Origin: Cytauxzoon felis
Taxonomy: Eukaryota > Apicomplexa > Aconoidasida > Piroplasmida > Theileriidae
Reading direction: 5' to 3'
DNA length: 64,000 bases
NCBI GenBank assembly: GCA_020283715.1
Contig: JAIQCW010000107.1
Span: 1-64,000, forward strand
Shown here: positions 1,384-16,064 of the stretch, piece by piece
How the letters are laid out: every line of letters starts with the position of its first letter
Position numbering within the stretch: the first letter of the stretch is position 1
Program-made: the position numbers and the translations under genes
The notes under the pieces: model-generated
Told to the model about the DNA's origin: nothing
The model's database searches: none
Seen by the model: the letters and a program-made list of their open reading frames with translations, nothing else

Positions 1384-1548
1384 TCATCTCGAACGTTGAC
1401 GCATCTTTCTTCTTTTACGTTGTAATCTATGAGTCCTCTTCTTCTTCCACTATAATGAACATGATGATAATATATCTATATTCAGTATACATACCTTCCA
1501 ACGCATTTTGGCATGAGCCTTCTTATACCTACTGGCACCGTGAGACAT
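1384..1548 (-). CDS. RPL41: 60S ribosomal protein L41 (eL41), 39 aa, two exons
   Basis: The exons are 1495-1548 and 1384-1449 with a 45-nt GT-AG intron. They join to a 39-residue, strongly basic peptide that begins MSHGASRYKK, contains AKMRWK at the splice junction and ends KMRQRSR. This is the form of eL41 known in apicomplexans, which has a longer N-terminus than the 25-residue eL41 of animals and yeast. eL41 is a short helix at the bridge between the ribosomal subunits. The gene is too small for ordinary gene finding. It is divergent from AOS1, with 514 bp between their starts, and lies next to its own decayed copy. Confidence 0.9.
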
Positions 1549-2062
1549 TTTTTTTAAAAATTTATTAAATCTATTTAAATAATACAATCATTTAACTAGA
1601 ATTAATTAATAGTGTCATGTTAATATTAAATCTAACAACCCCATCGATTGATTAATAACAGTAGCACATTTATATTTTATATATGACTAGACATTATCAT
1701 ATTTACAATTTCCTACGCATTGATAAAGAATTTAATAACATTTTCAACGTCACATGTCTTTAAATGTCAACCTTTTGGCAACGTGACGGTTACCGATAAA
1801 AAATTTTTAATTTATACCTGAAATGACAGTCTTCTAACGTATATTACACCTTTTAAATTATAACTTACTATAAACATTAATTTTTATTACATTTCTTCCA
1901 ATTTTCAAATTTTATGATCCACACCTCCATACACCCTCCACCTTATCTGACATCTACTTCAATCAATATCAACAGCCATGAATTAGTATATAAATGGCAA
2001 TAGCTGTAATTCATTTATAATTCACCAATATATTGGTCATAAATTCGGGAAATTCCTCAAGA
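1549..2062. promoter_or_regulatory. Intergenic region between RPL41 and AOS1 starts (divergent promoter by position)
   Basis: About 514 bp separates two divergent start codons, so promoters for both genes must lie here. The sequence is A+T-rich. I see no repeat copy or ORF, and no motif that I can name. Confidence 0.4.
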
Positions 2063-4509
2063 ATGGTGGATTCTGATGATTTAGTCGAGTTTATTGACTT
2101 ATCAGACTCTGAAGACGAGACTATAGAGCCAATTGATATAGATATACCCGAAAATAAACTCAATAAGACGGAATTATCAAGTGTTGATGAGATGATTTTC
2201 GATAGACAAATCAGACTTTGGGGTATCGACGCTCAGGAGAGGTTTGAAACTAACACTTAGCAAGTAATCATTATAATGTATAGGATAATGAGCTGTAGAG
2301 TACTGTTTTTGGGTAAGAATGGTATACAAGAAGAGGCTATTAAGAATTTATTGTTGGCTGGTTGGTATTCATCAAAACAATTTTTATAATTTATAGGCAT
2401 GAACGTCACTATTGTTAATGATCACATAGTTACCACCGATGATGCTACAGCAAGTTTCTTTCTTACAAAAGACGACATCGGGAAATCTGTACGTCATATC
2501 CTTCATTAGTCCTGCACCTGAGGTCCAATCCTTATCTTCCACTCGGCGTGGAGCCTTCTTCCAATTACCTGTCTCTAAAGAGTATAACCACTCCCGGAGA
2601 TCGTGGCGAAATATCCGAGACGATCTATGGGAGTCGAGGGGAAGTAAATAGAGAAGGCTCCACGCCGAGTGGAAGATAAGGATTGGACTTCTAGTAGAAG
2701 ACTGTCTCATGACGACTACAATGGAATTTGTCGAATGACTAAATAGAGCCCAATAGAACATGCACAATATATATTACATTTCTTTATCTTCATATATTTA
2801 TATTCAGCATGCGGTATCATTGTCATTAAGGATGTCTGAGATGGTTAGCCATCCTAAACGTGTGGTAGGATACAAGTCTCAATATTTAATTGAAGAAAAT
2901 GGAATGTATAATTTAATAAATTTAAATGATCTGGATAATTATAATGTAATTTGTATCGCCAATGAAGATTATTTACTACATAAACTCGTATGTCTATTTA
3001 ATTCTTAATGCGGCTCTGCCTACCCACCTGAGGTCCAATCCACCTCTTTTCCTCTTGCAGAGAGCTCTTCCAATTACCTCTCCCTCCGCTTCCCATAGAT
3101 CAGCTCCGGGTTCCACTCGAGGTCCAATAACTATACTTCGGCCACGATCTCCGGGAGTGGCTATACTCTTTAGAGATAGGTAATTAGATGAAGCCTCCAC
3201 GGCGAGTGGAAGAGAGGTAGATTGGACATCAAGTGGAACGCCAGGACGAGCTCAGATGGAGTAGCCATCTTACGACGATGAATGTATATTTGACACGCGT
3301 ATTTTATCTATTCCTTAGATTCGTCTGGACAATATATGCCGTGAGAAAAATATCGCATTTTATTCTACATTATCTATCGGTATCAATGGTTATATATTTA
3401 CTAACCTTCATTTACATAAGGTGTATGTTTACTTATTTCTTAATTCCCCACTTAATCCCCATTTTTACGTTAATAATTAATTCATATTATATTTAGTGTA
3501 GAAAAATTAAATAAAAAAATACAGCCATGTATTATAAACTATCGTACATTATATCAATTTTTAAATGAGGTATGTTATGGTTGAAAATTAAATTAATTTC
3601 TCCCTATATTCTGTTTCCCCCATTAAAAATTTTCTTCTTTAGCCTTCTATACCGGATGGTTGTGATCGTTTGATTAGGGAAATGTATGGATTAATATTAT
3701 TGGTAAAAACCTTCCCAGATTTAACTAAATTAAATTTCTATTCATCGGATGTATCTATTTGCATTAATGAAATTTGTAAAAATATCAACACAACACCGAC
3801 TGATGTTTTGTAAGTTGAATTCCACAGTGAAATTTACATCAATAGAACAAAATTACAAATGTATGGTACAACATTCCCACTCACATCAAGCATCTTAGGA
3901 GGATATCTATGTAAGTTATTTTTTAACACGCACTGAAATTATTCACTATACCAAATAAGATGTCTTCTAGACAACACTCACCTGAGGTTACAGACTCTGA
4001 TCCAACTAGGCATTCCACCAGATATCGTCTTGCAGACAGCTCTTCCAATTACCTATCTCTAAAGAGTAGAGCCACTCCCGGAGATCGTGACGGTGAAGGT
4101 AGTGATGAAGTTAGTGATGGATCATCCATCATGGGAATGATGGAAGATGGTGATAAGGTTGTGAGTGATGTAACCTCAAGTGGATTACCTGGAAGCGATC
4201 TACGGGAGCTGGAAGGGGATGTAAATAGAGAAGGCCACCACGGCGAGTGGAAGACCTCAGGTGGAGAGCTGTCTGCAAGACGAAGAGAGGTGGACTGGAA
4301 GTGACATAACCTCAGGTGGAATGGAGAGTATAATCTTAAATGATGTATATATTATTTGAATAATACATATTAAATTAAAACTAAAATTGAACATATATTC
4401 ATCTACAGCGTTGGAAGTTCGTAAGTATGTTACAAAACAGCACGAGACAATACCTAATTTTTGTGTTTTTGACATGAATAATTCGTTAGTAACGACTGCG
4501 ATGATATAA
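2063..4509 (+). CDS. AOS1: SUMO-activating enzyme subunit 1 (AOS1/SAE1), nine exons
   Basis: Nine exons join in frame to 345 residues: 2063-2241, 2284-2360, 2397-2488, 2808-2987, 3319-3422, 3497-3569, 3643-3809, 3846-3910, 4409-4509. AOS1 is the half of the SUMO E1 heterodimer that pairs with UBA2 to adenylate SUMO in the nucleus. Family marks are FDRQIRLWGIDAQER near the start of the fold, VLFLGKNGI in the glycine-rich loop position, LDNICREKNIAF with INGYIF, and PLTSSILGGYL near the end. An acidic leader of about 45 residues precedes the fold. The usual GxGxxG is weak (LGKNGI), which fits the subunit that does not bind ATP. Introns 1, 2, 5, 6 and 7 are 36-74 nt. Introns 3, 4 and 8 are 319, 331 and 498 nt because each holds a repeat copy. 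Confidence 0.88.
2514..2692. repeat. Repeat copy R2 in AOS1 intron 3, fold-back
   Basis: This G+C-richer insert lies inside the 2489-2807 intron. Its two arms, 2524-2559 and 2652-2687, are perfect 36-nt reverse complements, and about 90 nt of loop holds the shared module TCTCTAAAGAGTATAACCAC. No transposase is visible. A short MITE-like fold-back element is the best description. Confidence 0.8.
3024..3236. repeat. Repeat copy R3 in AOS1 intron 4
   Basis: It starts CCACCTGAGGTCCAATCC and ends with the near reverse complement GATTGGACATCAAGTGG. Inside are shared modules: the CTTGCAGA unit, the CCCTCCGCTTCCC unit and the CACGATCTCCGGGAGTGG unit. It lies wholly within the 2988-3318 intron, whose splice sites are normal. 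Confidence 0.78.
3979..4320. repeat. Repeat copy R4 in AOS1 intron 8
   Basis: It begins CACCTGAGGTTACAG and ends ATAACCTCAGGTGGA, which are inverted ends. Modules include CTTGCAGACAGCTCTTCC, the palindromic CATCCATCATGGGAATGATG unit and a GATCTACGGGAGCTGG unit. The plus strand is open for 114 codons (3960-4304), but the flanking AOS1 exons place the whole stretch in an intron. Confidence 0.78.
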
Positions 4510-4676
4510 TATGATGTTAAATATTCAATTTATTGTATATGTTATCTATGTGAAACTATATTACACATAAGTGGTGTATATTGTACTATGAAGATTCCAT
4601 CAGATTATAATGATGAATTGTATATTATATTGGAGATTTATAATTTTATTTTAATTAAAATAAATTATTTCTCGTC

Positions 4677-6161
4677 ATGATAATATATTTGTATGTGATA
4701 ATTTTGTTTACATCGTGTATAAATATATTGACTATAAATATTCCATCGCATAGACTTATCCATTTAAATTTCATATACAATAGGCATTTATTGCCTAAAT
4801 CGACTGGTAATATTAACAGATTGTTTTTAAATAGTAAAATATCTGACCAAGAATTGAATGATGAGATACAGGATTTGTATAAAGGTTTGAAGGACAAGAA
4901 ATGGTCATTTAATGATTTGCAATTGAAATTAACAAATGAAGGAATAACATTGGATGGTTGTAATAGACCTGATGATGTGATAAAACGTGTTGCTCAATTG
5001 AATATATTAGGTAAAGAGAAGTTGATGGTGTATTTACAAGACAATGATCCTGAATTTTCTAGTAATTATATAAAATTGTTACAAGAGAATACGAATAAGT
5101 ATGAAAATTTATCTGATGATGATAAAAAATCATTTATTGAATCATTGAAGTCTACATTAACTGAGAATGGCATTACAACTGATGATAAGCATATGAATGT
5201 TCTTGAATTATATTCAAGATTTCAAACTGATTTCCAATTAAAGTCTAAATTACCATCTACTAAGTAAGTAGAAATAAATTATTAATCATTCATCTTCCCT
5301 AGACCTGACAATGATGGAGTACAGAATGTTGAAGCATACAAGAGTGAGACCGAGTCGATAATGGGTGTATATAATAGGGTAAAGTCTAATAATGAGATGA
5401 AAGTATGTATAATTTCTATATATAAAACTATATTTTTTTAGGAAAAATTAATATCTGATGTTTGTAATGAGTTGGATTCACTCAGTGTTGATTATAAAGA
5501 CTGTAAAACTGATGAGCAATTGATTAATAGATTAGCTTATGCACGTGTTTATCCTAAAGAGGAAAGGGGTAAAAGTACAGTTAAAAGTCGTCGTAGAGTA
5601 ATCCAGAATGGACCATTGAGGACTGTTTTAAATATACAAACCCATAATTTAAATGATATTTTCCCCAACAATGGGGGCTCTATATTTGATAGTTTTTTTA
5701 ATGATATACAGAATGATATTGGATTTGATGGTACTAATTTGGGTAATGGGTTTTCATTACTTAAAGATATCGCATCTATGTTTGGTCTAGATTCAAATCT
5801 TCTTGGACAACAACAGCAGCAAATCCAATTCCAAAATGAAGAAAAATTCAATGATAATATTGAAAATAGACATAATGACGATGTAGAAGATGATTTTATA
5901 GAAACTGATCCTGAATTATTAGCACTACAAAGAAAGGCACAATTATCGGGTGATTCAGCACTACAAAATATGATAAATAAGGCTATAAAGGTAAATTTAT
6001 ATAAAATATTTATAATTTATTTATAGGATCCTAATTTACGTAATGTACTTAAGATTGCTACAACAAAAGGATATCAACATGCCCGTGATGCATGTTCAGG
6101 TGATCGTACATCATTATATATTCTCGATAAACTCAATGATAAACACATGTGGTCATCATAA
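4677..6161 (+). CDS. Secreted or apicoplast-targeted protein of unknown function
   Basis: The start ATG opens a hydrophobic signal peptide (MIIYLYVIILFTSCINILTI). After it comes a basic, Asn/Ser-containing stretch, the two-part pattern used for import into the apicoplast. The mature part is hydrophilic and helical. One segment repeats the pattern of short helices ending in LTNEGIT and LTENGIT. A QQQQQ run and an acidic stretch follow, and the protein ends KHMWSS. Short introns lie at about 5262-5302, 5404-5442 and 5991-6027, all with GT-AG ends. I do not recognise the family; apicoplast location is inferred from the leader only. The gene converges on the next gene, with 31 nt between the stop codons. 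Confidence 0.65.
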
Positions 6162-6192
6162 TGATAATAATATATAAATATCACTAATATAA

Positions 6193-8026
6193 TTAATCCT
6201 TTATTATTCTTGATTTAAATATACCCAACTTACCCCCTTTTGAATGGGGTGATGATGGGGTTAATTTTTTAATATTTTTAATTTGATCATCATTATTACT
6301 ACTAGAATGTTTAGTAATAATCGGATTACTTTCATCACGATTACCTGTACGCTTGACAATTTTTGTAATTTCATCAATGTCCAATTCATCAACATCATCC
6401 CTAATTGTGTTTTCAACAATTTCCTTTATATCGTCAATCGCAACCTCATCACCAATAGATGTCTTCTCAACAATTTTCTTAATCTCATCAATGTCAAGCT
6501 CAATATCAGCCTGTGATATAGTCGCCGTCACACTTGAGGTCTTTCCACTAGGCGTGGAGCCTCCTCTAATTACTTCCCCCTCCGCTTCCCTGAGATCAGC
6601 TAAGGGTCCACTCGAGGTTACATCACTACCTTCAGCTATTCCAACCGAGGTCGTCTTGCAGACAGCATCTCTATTTACTCCCCCCTTCGCTTCCCTGAGA
6701 TCAGCTACGGGTAGTCCACCTGAGGTCATGTACTCATCAACACCTTTTACACATGATATATCATGGGGTTTATTATCATTATTATGAGGTTTTTTATCCC
6801 CAGAATCCCCCATTACCCCACTTTCTCCACTCGAGGTCTTGTCAAAACCTTCATCCCTATCTTCCAGTACAACCTCTGCTTCGTCTTGCAGACGGCTTCC
6901 CTTATTTACCTCCCCTTCCAGCTCCCGTAGATCGCTTAAAGGTACTCGACTTCCACTCGAGGTTACATCCAACACATCCTTATCAGCATCTTCCATCATT
7001 CCCATGATGGATGATCCATCACTACCTTCTCCACGATCTCCGGGAGTGGCATCACCCTTTAGGGATAGGTAATTGAAAGAGGCACCACGGCTAGTGGGAT
7101 CATAGGTTGTAACATCGGGTGATGCATGATGTTGTTTATAATATTTATTTTTCTTGATTGCGTTATGATTGATGATGAAGGCTTCTAGTTCTTTGGTATT
7201 GTATTTATTATTATTGTCATTATCATTATTGTTTATATGATTCTTGTTATGTATGGATTGACTATTAGCTTCATTGATATGATGTATTAAATCGGAATTG
7301 GATTTAAATAATTCTATTTCATTAATTGTATTATTTAATTTATTTTCTAAAGAGTTGATATAATTACGTTTATTATTATAATTTAAATTATTATTATTAA
7401 GATTATTTTGATAATTATTAATATTATTATTATAATAATCAATTTTTATATTTAAAAATATAATACAAATTATATATCTTTTTATTCTTTCATAATATAA
7501 ATATAAATTTTATTAAATTTTATTTTATTATTTAACCCCATACGATTTTGATGAAAATTTTTAACAAAATTATTTATTTCATCAATCTAGTAAGAAAAAA
7601 AATTTTTTTATTAAAATAATGAAAGATAAAACTTCACCTCATTATTATTTTTAATAAAATCTCTATAAGATTCTAATGATTTTATAAAAACCTGAAGAAT
7701 TTTATTATAAGTTGATAAAAATATACTTTAAATATAATCAATTCATTATTATTAGCATTTATATTTATATCCAAATCTATTTCATCATTATTAATCATAG
7801 ATGATTCAATATATAATGGTTTATCATCTTTTATTCTATTAAATGTAGCAAAATAAAATGTACCCAATATACTAGTCATTATTATAATCAATATTGATAT
7901 CGTTATATTATGATATAACCATATTGGATCTATAATACTAGGTATAACTAATATAGTCAAATTAAATGTCATTATGTTCCTTAATGAATTATATATCGTA
8001 CTGTAATCAGATATCCTACTACCCAT
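6193..8026 (-). CDS. 565-aa membrane protein with about 200 residues encoded by a repeat copy
   Basis: Exons 7727-8026, 7638-7691, 7537-7586 and 6193-7486 join in frame (1698 nt). Residues 1-62 contain two hydrophobic segments. A third, shorter one follows the last splice (about residues 137-150). Residues 150-255 are Asn-rich and coiled-coil-like. About residues 257-454 are the translation of repeat copy R5, with units such as TSSG, DLREAEGEV, SSIMGMMEDA, NYLSLKGDATPGDRG and GDKKPHNNDNKPHD. The C-terminus returns to ordinary sequence, with three related units (LDIDEIKKIVEKT, IDDIKEIVENT, LDIDEITKIVKRT), and ends basic. No known family is recognised. The frame is continuous from ordinary sequence through the whole repeat to the stop, so the insertion has not killed the gene; whether the protein is made is unknown. 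Confidence 0.65.
6531..7120. repeat. Repeat copy R5, inside the coding exon
   Basis: It is the longest copy, about 590 bp, bounded by CACTTGAGGTC at the left and a TAACATCGGG-type variant end at the right. It contains every module seen in the other copies: two CGCTTCCCTGAGATCAGCTA units, one related TCCAGCTCCCGTAGATCGCT unit, several CACTCGAGGT units, the CATCATTCCCATGATGGATG unit and the CACGATCTCCGGGAGTGGC unit. All modules share one open frame on the minus strand. Confidence 0.78.
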
Positions 8027-8086
8027 TACCTCATGACCTATAGAAGTATATTATGTCATAATAATTCAGCACTCATGCTCTGCTAT

Positions 8087-8598
8087 CCACCTGAGGTTAC
8101 ATCACTGTCTTCATCTTTTCCACTCGCCGTGGTGGCCTTCTCTATTTACTTCCCCCTCCGCTTCCCTGAGATCAGCTACGGGTAGTCCACTTGAGGTTAC
8201 ATCCATCACATCCTTAGCAACATCTTCCATCATTCCCATGATGGATGATCCATCACCACACCTCTGCCACGATCTCTGGGAGTGGCTCTACTCTTTAGAG
8301 ATAGGTAATTGGAAGAAGCCACCACGGCGAGTGGAAGAGAGGTTGTACTGGAGGATGGAGGTGATGTTAGTGATGTAACCTCGAGTGGAGAAAATGGGGG
8401 TAAAAGTGGGTTATGGGGATAAAAAACCTCACAATAGTGATAATAAACCCCATGATGTACCTGATAAACATGAATATAAGTATGTAACCTCAGGTGGAGA
8501 ACCTGGAAGCGATCTACGGGAGCTGGAAGGGGAAGTAAATAGAGGAGCTGTCTGCAAGACGACATCAGGTAGATACTATAGGACTAGACCTCAGGTGT
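8087..8598. repeat. Repeat copy R6, intergenic
   Basis: It begins CCACCTGAGGTTACATCA and ends TAGACCTCAGGTGTAACG, inverted ends. It is mosaic: the left half carries modules in one orientation (CGCTTCCCTGAGATCAGCTA), the right half carries a related module reversed (GATCTACGGGAGCTGG) with the GATAAAAAACCTCACAATAG unit. It sits between the start of the 565-aa gene and the stop of the next minus-strand gene. Confidence 0.75.
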
Positions 8599-8647
8599 AA
8601 CGTCGATCTTCATTCATTGTATAAATAATAATTCTTCTTTATATTCA

Positions 8648-10838
8648 CTAACCGATTAGTGCGAGTAGTAAGAGTAGTAGTATTGATTGGTATAAGATAA
8701 TGAGTAGATTTCTGGTGTTTGTGATGATTTTCTTTTTGACGATGGTATGATTTTCATTATATGTGGTATAATATTTGGGTATATAGATTGAGAGGTATAT
8801 GATGATGCAAGTGATGTTAATTTTTAATAATATCTCTAATATATATTGTATTTTAATATAATTTAATATAAAACTTGATATATAATTAAGATTATCTATG
8901 GTGTATATATAATTATTATTATAAACAAACTTGAATTATTTCGAATTTCATTAATAATATGTGGTAAAATATGTATTGATAATATAAAAAATATAATATT
9001 TGTAGATAACATAATAAATTGTATAATAATATCAAATGTAAATTTATTAATATAATAATTTATTATTATTATAATTAATAATATTATACATGATATTAAA
9101 CTATACCATTTATATAATATATTATATTCTGGTTTCATTGTATTAATTTCTATCGTATTTATACCCATATTAAACTATACATTATTATTATACCCCATAA
9201 ATAAAAAACCCAACATACTTTTATTATTGTTATTAAATTATTATTTAATTTCTTTAATATTATAAACATTTTTATATCATCTACATTATTACTATTATAT
9301 ATCTTTAATTTATCATTTGTATCAATATATAATTTAATACTATTATCATCATCTATCAACTCTAACCATTTATCTAATATATACTTTTTATTAATCTCTG
9401 ATAAACCATTCACCATCACCACCTGATCCTATAATATCATTCATCACTACTCTCCACATCCTCACCTCCCTACTTATCATATAATTATGCCCCATTTCAT
9501 CCCCATTTTGCCCCATAATTTTAAATTGTGGTATACCATTTAGATTGAATGGTTGTGTAAGTTTATTATAATGGTTAGTATTTACAGAGTTATATTGATG
9601 ATGTTTAAGATGTACGAGTAGGACAATTGTTAGTATGGAATGAATGAAGGTTAATATGAAGATGGAATATTTAAATTTGAGAGAGTGTTTAACATGTTGA
9701 AAATCATTTTGAACATTGATCTGAGTTGAAGATGGTGTTGATATAATAATAAACATACAGAAATGACATTATCTAATTCTAAGAATGGAATGAATAGATA
9801 TGATTAATATAAAACATACTGGTTTTATTAATATTTTCATTATTAATTTTATTATATAAATCAAGTACAATGCATTGTAATACAGGAGCCCATATAAACC
9901 AAAATATAAATTTGATAATAGTAAAGTTAATAAATAATCTTAATGAGATTGTAATTAATACTAATGAATAATCAGTGAATATAAAATAAAATAATCGATG
10001 CATTTTATTATGTTGAAGTAATATACCCGATTGTATAACATATAATAATAATGATACAATAATTAATGATAGTGTTGAAATTCTATTTAAATAACATAAT
10101 AATCTATAATCTATATAAATATATATAAAACTATATACAAGTAAACATACTATCCATAGATAATCTTGTAGATGTTATATTACATATAGTATAGACTAGT
10201 ATAGATACTAGTAATAGATATACAGGTATATTAATCTTCTTATATAATACAATAAATATAACAGCAATAATAAACATTAATATAATACCATAATAATTAC
10301 TAGTTTTTATAGCTATACGTATTTTATTTTTAATATCCCATACATTTTTATTATTATACTTCATTCTAGTCAATGACTCTATGAATTAATAATATTATAA
10401 ACAAATTATAAATACCCAAATATACATTATGATTATCATCCAATATAGACGCAATCAACTTTATATTACCATTTAAATGGACATTTAAAGGTAATTTATC
10501 ATCAGGTACATTTAAATTATAAGCAACTATAAAGTGTTTAATCATAATGGAAAAGACATACCATCATCAGTAATCAATTGGAGTTTAACCAATTTATAAT
10601 CATCAGGTAATGTCCATAATGATATAGATTTCATTAATTTTGTATAAAATGACATTAAATCCTCTTCATTATTATTTACAGCACATGGTAATTCATCAGT
10701 ACGAACAAGAGATGATATAACAGCTCTAGCCTTGAAACGTATGATGTTTTCACCAAATGTACTATAAACTATACAAAATGAACATAATGCGATAAATATA
10801 ACACACGCTTTTATACCATAGCGAGTTAATCTAATCAT
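8648..10838 (-). CDS. Polytopic membrane protein, multi-exon, family unknown
   Basis: The start at 10838 gives a basic N-terminus and one membrane segment (VIFIALCSFCIVYST). A non-membrane region of roughly 120 residues follows, rich in Asn and Asp, then a series of about seven further hydrophobic segments spread over exons near 10131-10373, 9779-10003, 9391-9756, 9159-9422 and 8896-9168, and a last exon ending at 8648. Introns are about 30-40 nt where I could follow them; not every junction was resolved. One N-terminal membrane helix, a lumenal domain and a seven-helix bundle is the layout of Wntless/TMEM181-type proteins, but I see no sequence motif that proves it. Sequence is extremely A+T-rich, as expected for a poorly conserved membrane protein here. 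Confidence 0.55.
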
Positions 10839-11060
10839 TTCACGTACACATTTGAGTTATTTTACATTTTAAATGATTTAAACATGTATATATACAATTA
10901 AATATAATTTAAAGACATTTTTAAAATCTGTCCAGTTGTTTCGATGTTGACGTGTTGAATGGTCACCATATTGGAACGAGTTGAGTAAACGATGAATTAA
11001 ACGTCATTCATAATACATATTATAACTATAATTAAATAAATAATCGTATACATTTGTCTA

Positions 11061-11255
11061 ATGGGCTGGTTTTGGTCATCAGAACCATCAAATACTCAAC
11101 TTTCAAAGTCTGGTAAAAAAATTTGCTGTGTATGCAAGGAGACTAAAGAAGCTAGAGATTTATGTATAGTAAAAAACGGTATTGATAAATGTAAGGAATT
11201 TATAGATGCTCATAATAAATGTCTTCGTGAAGAGGGATTTACAGTTGATGATTGA
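11061..11255 (+). CDS. COX17: Cytochrome c oxidase copper chaperone COX17
   Basis: This single-exon 64-residue protein passes copper to Sco1/Cox11 in the mitochondrial intermembrane space during assembly of complex IV. The copper site KICCVCKETKEARD matches the family's CC-x-C signature. Two further cysteines spaced by nine residues (DKCKEFIDAHNKCL) complete the twin helix. The length is normal for COX17. The start ATG is the first in frame, and the gene is divergent from the upstream membrane protein gene, with 222 bp between starts. Confidence 0.93.
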   Translation: MGWFWSSEPSNTQLSKSGKKICCVCKETKEARDLCIVKNGIDKCKEFIDAHNKCLREEGFTVDD

Positions 11256-11303
11256 ATTGATGATATTGGAAGTTTATTGGAATTATCTTTACATTTTATT
11301 AAA

Positions 11304-12271
11304 ATGACTACTATATTTAATTTACAATTAGATTCTGATGATTCAGATTCTGAATATAATTTATCAGATGATGAAGAAACAGAGAGTGAGGATGAGAATG
11401 AAATTAAACGTCGTAAACGTGAAGAACGTCAAAAGAAAGAGAAGGAGAAATTAGAAAAACAAGCAGATGATATGTATAAAGATATGTTAAAAGAAAGTGA
11501 TTTATGTTATAAACATAATGAAACTATATTAAAGAATGATTTTATGTTACAATTTCATAAAAGAATACCTATACGTAATAAAATTAATACAACATTACCA
11601 GAATTAATAAAATATATGAATAATAGTATAAGTAGAATATTTAATGATAATTTAACAATTGATATTAAAAAATTTAAACAAGATTGTTATTCAACATCAA
11701 ATGATGAGAAATTACAACTTGTAAAGAATGCTGTTATAACATTAGATGATGATTTACATGTACCAACATTGAAGAATAAATTTATATTTGCTGGTACAAT
11801 ATATGAGTATGTACAATTATTATTATCATCATGTAAAATTTATAGAATACATGAACAAGTTGATAAGAAATCCAAGAAATATTTAAATACATTAAAGGTA
11901 ATTATACATCTACTTCCTTCATCAATTTAACATTTAGAAACAAAAAAAATCTCTTGGTGGTAATTTCAAATTTTTAGATGATATGTTATCTGGTATATTA
12001 TTATTTATATAATTAATACAATAATTATATAGAACTAAATACTACACGTAAATTAAGTGCTATATCTAAATCAGAAATTGATTGGTATATTTAAATTAAA
12101 ATATTAAAAGAACAATTCCATTATAATTTTAGGAATCAATTTAAAGATAAAAATAATTTATCCGAATCATTACGTCGTCAACATAAATACATCAAAGATC
12201 AAGAATTCCTTAATCGTGTCTCATGGAAAGAATATGAAACGAAAAGAAATGCTAAAAACAATGATACATAA
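11304..12271 (+). CDS. BCNT/Craniofacial development protein 1 (SWC5-like chromatin remodelling subunit)
   Basis: Four exons; exon 1 is 11304-11897, exon 2 starts at 11938, and the last ends at 12271. The N-terminus is an acidic Ser/Asp/Glu stretch followed by a Lys/Arg/Glu-rich helix. The C-terminus is a BCNT-C domain built from the three small last exons: FLDDMLSGLNTTRKLS, KSEIDWNQFK and KYIKDQEFLNRVSWKEYE. BCNT proteins (Swc5 in yeast) belong to the SWR1/SRCAP complex that deposits H2A.Z. The acidic N-terminus is also typical because it binds H2A-H2B. I chose the ATG at 11304, since 11277 is TTG. Repeat R7 begins 53 bp after the stop. Confidence 0.82.
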
Positions 12272-12323
12272 TATTACCATCGAAATAATTTTCTACTTCA
12301 ATATACTTTATTATAATAAATAT

Positions 12324-12860
12324 ACTCGAAGTCCAATCCAAGTCTTTATCCACTCGCCGTTCCACCTGAGGTCCATCTTTTCCATTGCATGGAGCTCTTC
12401 TATTTAGTCCCCCCTCCGCTTCCCTGAGATCAGCTACGGGTTCCACTTGAGGTCTTGTACTCATCAACTTGTATTCCAGGTACATCATGGGGTTTATTAT
12501 CACTATTATGAGGTTTTTTATCCCCATAAACCTCCTTTACCCCACATTCTCCACTCGAGGTTACATCAATAACTTCACAGATTCCATCTTCAACTACACC
12601 TTTCATTCCACTCGCCGTGGTGGCCTCTCTATTTACTTCCCCTTCCAGATCCCGTGGATCGCTTCCAGGTATTCCACTCGAGGTTATATCACCACCTTTC
12701 GTCGTCTTGCAGACAGCTTCCCCATTTAATCACCCTCCGCTTCCCGTAGATCAGCTACGGGTTTATCGCCACGATCTCCGGGAGTGGCATCACCCTTCAG
12801 GGATAGGTAATTGGAAGAGGCTCCACGCCTAGTGGAATAGAGGATTGATTGGACCTCGTT
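12324..12860. repeat. Repeat copy R7, intergenic
   Basis: It is bounded by ACTCGAAGTCCAATCC at the left and GGATTGATTGGACCTCG at the right, an imperfect inverted pair. It has the same modules as R5 in the same orientation: two CGCTTCCC units, a TTTATTATCACTATTATGAG unit, several CACTCG units and the CACGATCTCCGGGAGTGGC unit. It fills most of the space between two converging genes. Confidence 0.77.
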
Positions 12861-12916
12861 GTAAGATCTGACGGCAGGACGAAGGAATGGTGATGTAGAG
12901 AAGAGTATGATTGAGT

Positions 12917-14202
12917 TCATTTATTAATTGGTTGTAATTTATCATAATATTTATAATTAATTTTCTTTTTTTTATAAACTTTATAGTATTTATCATGTCC
13001 GGTGATAACATGTATGAATTTGATAAAGAATGAGTTATAATAATAGTATTTGATTTTATTGATTAAAAATTTCGTCCTTGTGATTGTGAGTATAATAAAT
13101 AATAATTGTAGAAATGATCTTAATGTTAATATAATAATAATTGTAATGATAAAGATTAATAAAATGAATAGTATACGATGATATAAATCATTTGGTAATA
13201 TAAATTTAATATCTGGATTAATATAAATGATATAATTAAATATAATTTCTAATATATTATTAAATTTATTAATAACGACTGTTAAATTATTATTATTATT
13301 AACATCATCAATATTTAATATAAAATTTATAATTATAATTAAATTATATAATAAATATGATAATATTAATTTATATAAATATATTAATTTATATAAATAT
13401 AAATTATATAATATATTTAATGCTATATATTTATTATTTACAATATAAAAAACCCCAGTTTTATATATAAATAATTTTTATATATAAAATTATTATTATT
13501 ATCATTTAAAAAAACACCACAATAATTACTTACATTTAAATTCATTGTATAAATATATTCATTTATATCATCATTTAATATAATTAAATTATTATTTATA
13601 TTATTATAATATATTTTTATATAATTTAATATATAATTTAATAATTTTTTTATATTATTATTTAATATATTTAAACCTATTGGTAATTTTATTATTATAA
13701 TCTTATATATAAATAATTCTATACTTGAATATAATGGTATATTATTCCTTAATATTATTAATGGTGTATTATATATTATATATAATATATATATTACCTC
13801 TGATAATTTTAAATTTAATATATTCTCCAATGATAATATATTATAATATGTATTGAAATAATGATGTCTATTATAATTTTCTATATCCTTTGGCACTATA
13901 TTTATATCATGTGTCTTTATAGTGTCTGATTTATCATTTACTGTCTTTATATTTGAATTGTTATAACGTACATTATTAGATGATTGAATATTCATTACAT
14001 TATCGACATTCATTACATTATCCAACTTCTTTACATCATCCACATCCAATTTAACTTCATCCACATTCTTCACATCATCCTCATTCATTACATCATTATA
14101 TGATAAAGAAGGAGTATCCGGTGTAATTAAATGTAAATTAGCGTCATTAGTAATGACGAAAGATACAATAGACAAGAAAAGGTAGATGAATTTAAAAATC
14201 AT
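12917..14202 (-). CDS. Secreted or membrane-anchored protein, extremely A+T-rich, unknown
   Basis: It starts with a signal peptide (MIFKFIYLFLSIVSFVIT). Next is an Asp/Val/Asn-rich repeat stretch of short units like DDVKNVDEVK and NVMNVDNVM. A long Ile/Leu/Asn/Tyr-rich helical part follows, and near the C-terminus is a strong hydrophobic segment (FILLIFIITIIIILTL) with a short basic tail. One intron lies around 13440-13520; several donors are possible and I could not fix the junction. After it the frame stays open to the stop at 12917-12919. No family is recognised. The layout (signal peptide, acidic repeats, C-terminal membrane helix) would suit a surface or organelle membrane protein. Confidence 0.5.
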
Positions 14203-15536: not shown

Positions 15537-15749
15537 ATTGAAATTAATAATTATAAAGTATAATATATCATGTATAATTGTATATATCGGATTAATTACA
15601 CTACATAATCTGTATGCTCCGTGGGTACAAGATAACTATAAATAGAAATACTTATATAAATACTTAAAAATATAAAAAATTTTATTAAAATTATACTATA
15701 AAGATTAATATAATAATTATTATAATAGACAGGTTATAAATTAAAACAT

Positions 15750-15821
15750 ACGGGCACCGAGGATCGAACTCGGGATCTTCTGCGTGTTAGGCAGACGTCA
15801 TAGCCACTAGACCATGCCCGC
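15750..15821 (-). tRNA. tRNA-Val (anticodon AAC)
   Basis: Read on the minus strand, it folds as a 72-nt tRNA. The acceptor stem GCGGGCA pairs with TGCCCGT, the D-arm has TCTAGTGGCTATGA, the anticodon stem TCTGC/GCAGA encloses CTAACAC with anticodon AAC, and the T-arm is CCGAG-TTCGATC-CTCGG. The internal promoter boxes fit. There is no intron. Confidence 0.93.
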
Positions 15822-15992
15822 TACTCTCAGCGCCTGTATTAATTACTTATATGAAATGAAAATGATTTTTCATGTATATTATTAATATGTTAATAGAAAT
15901 TTATTATAATTACTATATGTTACACTAGAACATCAAAAAATATACTAACCTCATATCATTGTTATCTATCGTTACATAATTCATAAAGACAT

Positions 15993-16064
15993 ACGGGCAC
16001 CGAGGATCGAACTCGGGACCTCCTGCGTGTGAAGCAGGCGTCATAACCACTAGACCATGCCCGC
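15993..16064 (-). tRNA. tRNA-Val (anticodon CAC)
   Basis: This is the partner of the previous tRNA, 171 nt away and in the same orientation. The acceptor, D- and T-arms are nearly identical. The anticodon stem CCTGC/GCAGG encloses TTCACAC, anticodon CAC. The two genes probably arose by duplication followed by change of the anticodon arm. Confidence 0.93.

Follow-up and report, generated by a model that had tools for sequence, protein, structure and literature searches.

Exons are normally cleared of selfish DNA. The closest described systems are the Rickettsia palindromic elements (RPE) and similar coding repeats of Wolbachia, many copies of which, according to the available portions of the sources, lie in frame in unrelated housekeeping genes (PMC10969869; PMC2996958). 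RPE are given as about 150 bp long, with 44 integrations in R. conorii, close to half of which lie in open reading frames (ORFs) (PMC10969869, in excerpt). PARCEL is a palindromic coding repeat of bacteria and some algae; in the accessible part of its description, its tandem 25-residue units sit in ORFs without assigned function and not inside conserved genes (PMC2996958). The coding palindromes of nematomorph mitochondria are also hairpins inside coding sequence, but their inverted repeats are perfect and belong to mitochondrial genes, and the portion of the source at hand describes no dispersed family of the present scale (PMC6649704). Introners, transposon-like makers of introns, are repeats scattered in genes, with inverted ends in some families (PMC9860276, in part). 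Class II transposons seem to be missing from Apicomplexa, and as far as the available text of the source goes, no transposable elements are reported in C. felis, T. parva, T. annulata, and T. orientalis (PMC9141347). Searches of an open-licence library listed no account of in-frame mobile repeats for a piroplasm, which is not proof that such repeats are unpublished.

The window analyzed here is a stretch of 64,000 nucleotides of Cytauxzoon felis (contig JAIQCW010000107.1, positions 1 to 64,000; C60 in our numbering) from an assembly with 181 contigs and a total of 8,623,106 bases (GCA_020283715.1). One of its genes carries a copy of a repeat family that, like RPE, is dispersed, palindromic, and in frame within unrelated genes. 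RPE, as partly described, are bacterial elements of about 150 bp, whereas the present copies are 78–972 nt long and modular, number hundreds per genome, and reside in a eukaryotic nucleus, where splicing is possible. The likeness is one of way of working and is drawn from published descriptions, seen in part, rather than from sequence comparison; membership is not claimed.

The window gene was modeled on the minus strand as four exons with introns of 35, 51, and 50 nt, all GT-AG; the exon joins were placed by splice-site consensus only. The sum of 566 codons given for this model by the first-pass annotation was reproduced, the stop being counted, so that the predicted protein has 565 residues. 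Exon 4 lies within a stop-to-stop ORF of 438 aa (6193–7509). Judged by eye, no in-frame ATG precedes the repeat in this ORF, and upstream exons are therefore required, as the model assumes. The features of the gene and the family copies in this part of the window are as follows.

7727..8026, minus strand: exon 1, with the start codon and a hydrophobic N-terminus (splice sites by consensus)
7638..7691, minus strand: exon 2 of the gene model (by consensus only)
7537..7586, minus strand: exon 3 of the gene model (by consensus only)
6193..7486, minus strand: exon 4, with an Asn-rich part, the repeat copy, a C-terminal part, and the stop (open flanks)
6531..7121, minus strand: the window repeat copy (R5), in the family sense frame and stop-free (self-BLAST mask, frame test, genome peptide matches)
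6987..7017, minus strand: 31-base core with an imperfect palindrome (genome-wide count of core sites)
7068..7097, minus strand: left arm (approximate) of an imperfect inverted repeat near the end of the copy (predicted DNA fold; ends by eye)
about 6545..6574, minus strand: right arm (approximate), pairing with 7068..7097 (predicted DNA fold; ends by eye)
2506..2701, no strand assigned: other family copy, one sense-frame stop (mask)
3020..3240, no strand assigned: other family copy, no sense-frame stop (mask)
3979..4320, no strand assigned: other family copy, one sense-frame stop (mask)
8083..8581, no strand assigned: copy just upstream of the window gene, in two frames or strands, two stops (mask)
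12324..12884, no strand assigned: other family copy, in two frames or strands, four stops (mask)

As first annotated, the last exon is open through the repeat copy. The copy is flanked by 364 and 334 nt that stay open in its frame; when either flank was shuffled 2000 times with dinucleotides preserved, no shuffle was open. The repeat was earlier assigned to residues 257–454 of the protein, and the copy delimited independently by self-comparison agrees with this (about residues 257–454). The recurring peptide units TSSG and ATPGDRG were found as described, and the third unit, DLREAEGEV, in the form DLRE[AL]EGEV; a PARCEL-type tandem array of 25-residue units was not found at this copy, the one searched for it. 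The predicted DNA fold runs through the copy from end to end (z −3.06). The copy is in frame and, from the sequence, most likely translated. The label of membrane protein is putative, given the hydrophobic N-terminus judged by eye. Neither the whole-protein search, in which Asn-rich words probably crowded the candidates, nor a separate search with residues 1–150 revealed a homologue, and an insert-free orthologue could therefore not be shown; since the protein set searched may contain few apicomplexan proteins, this absence means little. Exons 1 and 4 had no Pfam match, and positions 2000–13500 of the window had no Rfam match. The copy at 8083–8581 adjoins the start of the window gene and could carry or disturb its promoter.

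The family extends over the whole genome. The 31-base core occurs at 456 sites (220 + 236) with up to three mismatches, while a reversed control pattern gave no site. A repeat-peptide query against the genome yielded at least 190 matches, 150 of 3180 candidates having been scored, and open frames of 400–2200 codons hold many of the matches listed. For closer analysis, we used 63 merged segments with a total of 285,159 bases, including the window; they came from DNA and peptide searches, from contig order, and from larger regions around known copies, so the sample was drawn partly by peptide search. Self-comparison of this sample masked 151 repeat regions of 78–972 nt (median 342), with a G+C content of 48.5% compared to 31% for all sampled segments together. 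The copies are modular. The inverted motif CCACYYGAGGT...ACCTCRRGTGG was present at both ends, with at most one mismatch, in 87 of 150 copies (28 of 43 copies classed below as genic and 59 of 107 others); in 1668 unmasked control windows its left part occurred once and its right part 11 times. The mean fold z was −4.6 for 14 genic copies and −6.0 for 14 others, within a range of −0.9 to −16.9 and with 12 shuffles each, which makes these values rough. The family is thus palindromic with a strong hairpin, as for a Rickettsia-type element, though some copies have z values near −1. Short length, inverted ends, high copy number, and lack of an evident protein of its own are features shared with MITEs, from which the family differs in that many copies are intact in-frame exon inserts and that no target-site duplication was detected: for lengths of 2–9 nt and offsets of 0–3, 86 copies showed no clear excess. 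Mobility of the repeat is therefore not proven.

With a mean GRAVY of −0.87 and a high content of G, S, E, and D, the sense-frame peptide is hydrophilic and of a composition that fits a disordered linker. It had no match at E 0.01 in the public protein set, and a 25-base pattern of the core gave no exact match in viral contigs.

The relation of the copies to genes was assessed from their flanks. For 48 of the 151 masked regions, the sequence on either side was open for 60 codons or more on a single strand, in whatever frame. The same frame was found on both sides in 44 of these 48, where one third was expected (P 4e−17); some copies lie in one ORF and are not fully independent. The contig-order sample alone (contigs C1–C24) gave 16 of 18 (P 1.7e−6). 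All 44 frame-keeping copies were in sense orientation, and 43 of them, referred to here as genic, were stop-free; such in-frame insertion in unrelated genes is what is described for RPE. The absence of stops from genic copies is a matter of definition, so only the flank-based count was used as a test and the stop count by genic class was excluded. Gap lengths in pairwise BLAST alignments were uninformative because of ambiguous gap placement. Outside the genic set, 70 of 102 copies with a peptide match had a sense-frame stop or a change of frame or strand, some of these 102 being cut by segment ends or having one open flank. The other five frames of the 43 genic copies contained 1.8–12.2 stops per 100 codons and were fully open in only three instances; usually, then, one of the six orientations and frames is readable. 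A similar asymmetry was seen in 74 single-frame copies outside the 43, where the sense frame had 1.5 stops per 100 codons vs. 2.2–9.3 in the other five and was fully open in 27.

These counts bear on the idea that the copies are introner-like elements spliced out of the message, their inverted ends supplying GT and AG; this is the main alternative, which we regard as unlikely. Terminal inverted repeats are reported for 72 of 177 assessable published introner families, according to the part of the source available (PMC9860276), and some copies of the present family do sit in apparent introns. By eye, the copy ends often read CTGAG followed by GTTACATC, and GTAACCTCAG followed by GTGG at the far end, so that possible splice sites are at hand. 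Splicing, however, demands neither a kept frame nor the absence of stops, yet 44 of the 48 copies keep the frame and 43 of the 44 are stop-free. Moreover, the introns predicted in the window gene are 35–51 nt long, whereas the masked copies have a median of 342 nt. In contrast to introners, as partly described, most exon copies probably stay in the message, judging from the pattern of frames and stops, although some may be spliced.

Five of the 48 flank-selected copies fell outside the genic set. One (L011, at locus 1501–2050, minus strand) kept the frame and contained three stops, all inside a single 51-nt GT-AG stretch, which leaves room for partial splicing of the introner kind and is possibly a new intron born inside the repeat. 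Its upstream side has a weak ARM-repeat match and its downstream side matches nothing; the two flanks likely belong to one gene. In a ubiquilin-like gene on contig C16, the frame shifts inside the copy; the upstream part is ubiquitin-like (E 2.6e−16), and the downstream part weakly matches ubiquilin-type domains. In the third copy of the Aquarius gene (L043, 6576–7147), the frame is displaced by a single base within a G run, after which the repeat sense frame resumes and is followed by the helicase C-terminus (E 1.8e−57 to chain 4pj3_A); decay or a base error could account for this shift. The remaining two copies are antisense, with different frames on their two sides and stops in all three host frames. 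One is in a methyltransferase gene, of which Pfam matches the downstream part and not the upstream part; the other lies downstream of PA200 on contig C37 and gave no match. For both, inspection by eye showed donor-like (GTACGT, GTATGT) and acceptor-like sites beyond the copy, and they look like insertions into introns. The position of these sites is as expected for copies in true introns and speaks against introners, whose splice sites would be at the copy ends. If the two antisense copies are intronic, exon copies obey frame and orientation and intron copies do not.

Identified host proteins allowed the position of copies to be compared with known homologues. In a Vps33 gene, the copy occupies ORF residues 304–409 within an unaligned part (237–450), and the flanks align to residues 135–213 and 222–346 of human VPS33A. 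The copy in isoleucyl-tRNA synthetase (IleRS; 270–470) lies in an unaligned part (252–485) between flanks that align to residues 9–106 and 120–267 of a solved IleRS. The Aquarius gene has three copies: the first (202–301) lies ahead of the first strong match, the second (1112–1234) between parts aligned to 515–701 and 781–945, and the third between aligned residues 945 and about 981. In these three genes, homology was thus found on both sides of a copy. A PLD-family enzyme with a copy at 250–482 is a weaker case, the second part alone scoring E 2.8 against a solved chain; Pfam counts two PLD-like stretches, with the place shown only for the better one. The PA200 gene (L039, 2270–6079) contains three copies, and only its first part scores alone against solved chains. 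The first two of these copies are 96% identical over 337 nt, which suggests local copying. A Pfam scan of 27 host-ORF queries gave 17 with a family match at E ≤ 0.01, some of these matches falling below Pfam's own cut-off; one query (L016) is part of L039. Further families were Nrap, helicase-PHD, RRM, SMC hinge, SMC_N, CW zinc finger, FAINT, TPR, PHD, DUF676, DUF908, and a tRNA-ligase anticodon domain. The FAINT domain is linked to piroplasms, and together with the short introns and the size of the genome it points to a Theileria-like organism.

Copies flanked by homology in conserved proteins look inserted into existing exons. The first-pass annotation had proposed, for one membrane-protein gene, either exonisation of a repeat or a family that began as a coding repeat. 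The in-frame copy in that gene holds, but the pattern is genome-wide and not a single-gene case, and exonisation fits poorly with copies that interrupt conserved proteins elsewhere; the family may have had a coding origin. The same two-sided homology in three genes, together with the frame agreement and the shuffle result for the flanks of the window copy, makes it extremely improbable that the open frames are due to chance or are an assembly artefact, although the one-base shift in the G run of Aquarius hints at base errors.

In the explanation that we favor and consider quite likely, the repeat is a MITE-like element of this piroplasm-like parasite, modular, dispersed, and with inverted repeats. 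Usually one of its six frames is stop-free and encodes the hydrophilic Gly/Ser/Glu/Asp-rich peptide, and the element would insert into exons, apparently into introns, and into intergenic DNA. Insertions into exons would persist mainly if they are sense and in frame, and an exon copy would then reach both the mRNA and the protein, where the host tolerates it as a linker or loop that is probably disordered. The window gene would contain one such exon insertion. The data show the family and its dispersal, its folding and inverted ends, how frame, orientation, and stops are distributed between open flanks, and the interrupted conserved proteins; that the element moves, is translated, is disordered as a peptide, and is neutral is inferred.

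Substitutions between copies gave no sign that the inserted residues are constrained by the host. Relative to a simulation keeping the substitution spectrum, N:S was 0.89 for 825 genic pairs and 0.83 for 938 other pairs; plain dN/dS was 0.65 and 0.62, respectively. As N:S in genic copies does not fall below that in the others, the genes appear to keep the frame without extra constraint on residues. This result also bears on the suggestion that the insert peptide has a selected function, for example, as a localisation, turnover, or interaction module. The recurring peptide units would suit such a role, and acidic Ser/Gly-rich segments could be linkers, but constraint is not stronger inside genes and the identified host proteins are unrelated to each other; we hold this explanation to be very unlikely.

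The abundance of genic copies is close to what tolerated insertion predicts. Among exact-core copies sampled by contig order (30 core places and 8 of the next 10), 11 of 38 were genic (95% interval 15–46%). Random insertion with one of six orientations and frames tolerated, in a genome with 65–70% coding sequence, predicts 24–28%; a coding share of 66–69% is given for C. felis and T. parva in the available part of the source (PMC3748084). The genic and other copies are intermixed, and the best match was non-genic for 24 of 41 genic copies. When non-genic copies were aligned on two genic copies, no codon column had a majority stop, and the form that multiplies thus probably has an open frame. 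This would follow if the element arose as coding sequence or if new copies are seeded from those in exons; the family may have begun as, or be maintained by, coding sequence.

A version without any mobile element would have a coding repeat spread between genes by recombination or gene conversion, the intergenic copies being decayed debris. The sense frame is indeed the cleanest even outside genes, and no target-site duplication was found. Among 145 sampled copies, 16 had their best match within 10 kb, compared to 2.5 expected, so part of the spread is local. The other 129, however, had their best match elsewhere, and defined inverted ends are present in non-genic and genic copies alike, which fits an element. 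We therefore judge spread by recombination alone to be improbable and retain the MITE-like element as the preferred explanation.

More broadly, and with somewhat less confidence, we think it probable that this nuclear genome has been colonised by an exon-adapted mobile element with one hydrophilic frame of six, which lengthens many proteins, including essential enzymes. Selection on the inserted residues would be weak, roughly 70–210 copies would lie in exons (15–46% of the 456 core-bearing sites), and new introns may arise in copies. If true, this extends the Rickettsia observation to eukaryotes, with many conserved proteins interrupted in one small nuclear genome. It would also be an experiment already run in nature, showing what amount of foreign peptide a protein can accommodate and how inserts may become linkers or introns; in it, exon, intron, and intergenic copies within one genome serve as mutual controls.

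Two further observations concern other parts of the window. Two neighbouring tRNA-Val genes are located on the minus strand at 15749–15821 and 15992–16064, with the anticodons AAC and CAC. At 13990–14096, an 18-nt unit is repeated 5.8 times in tandem; the unit corresponds to six codons and could be a coding repeat.
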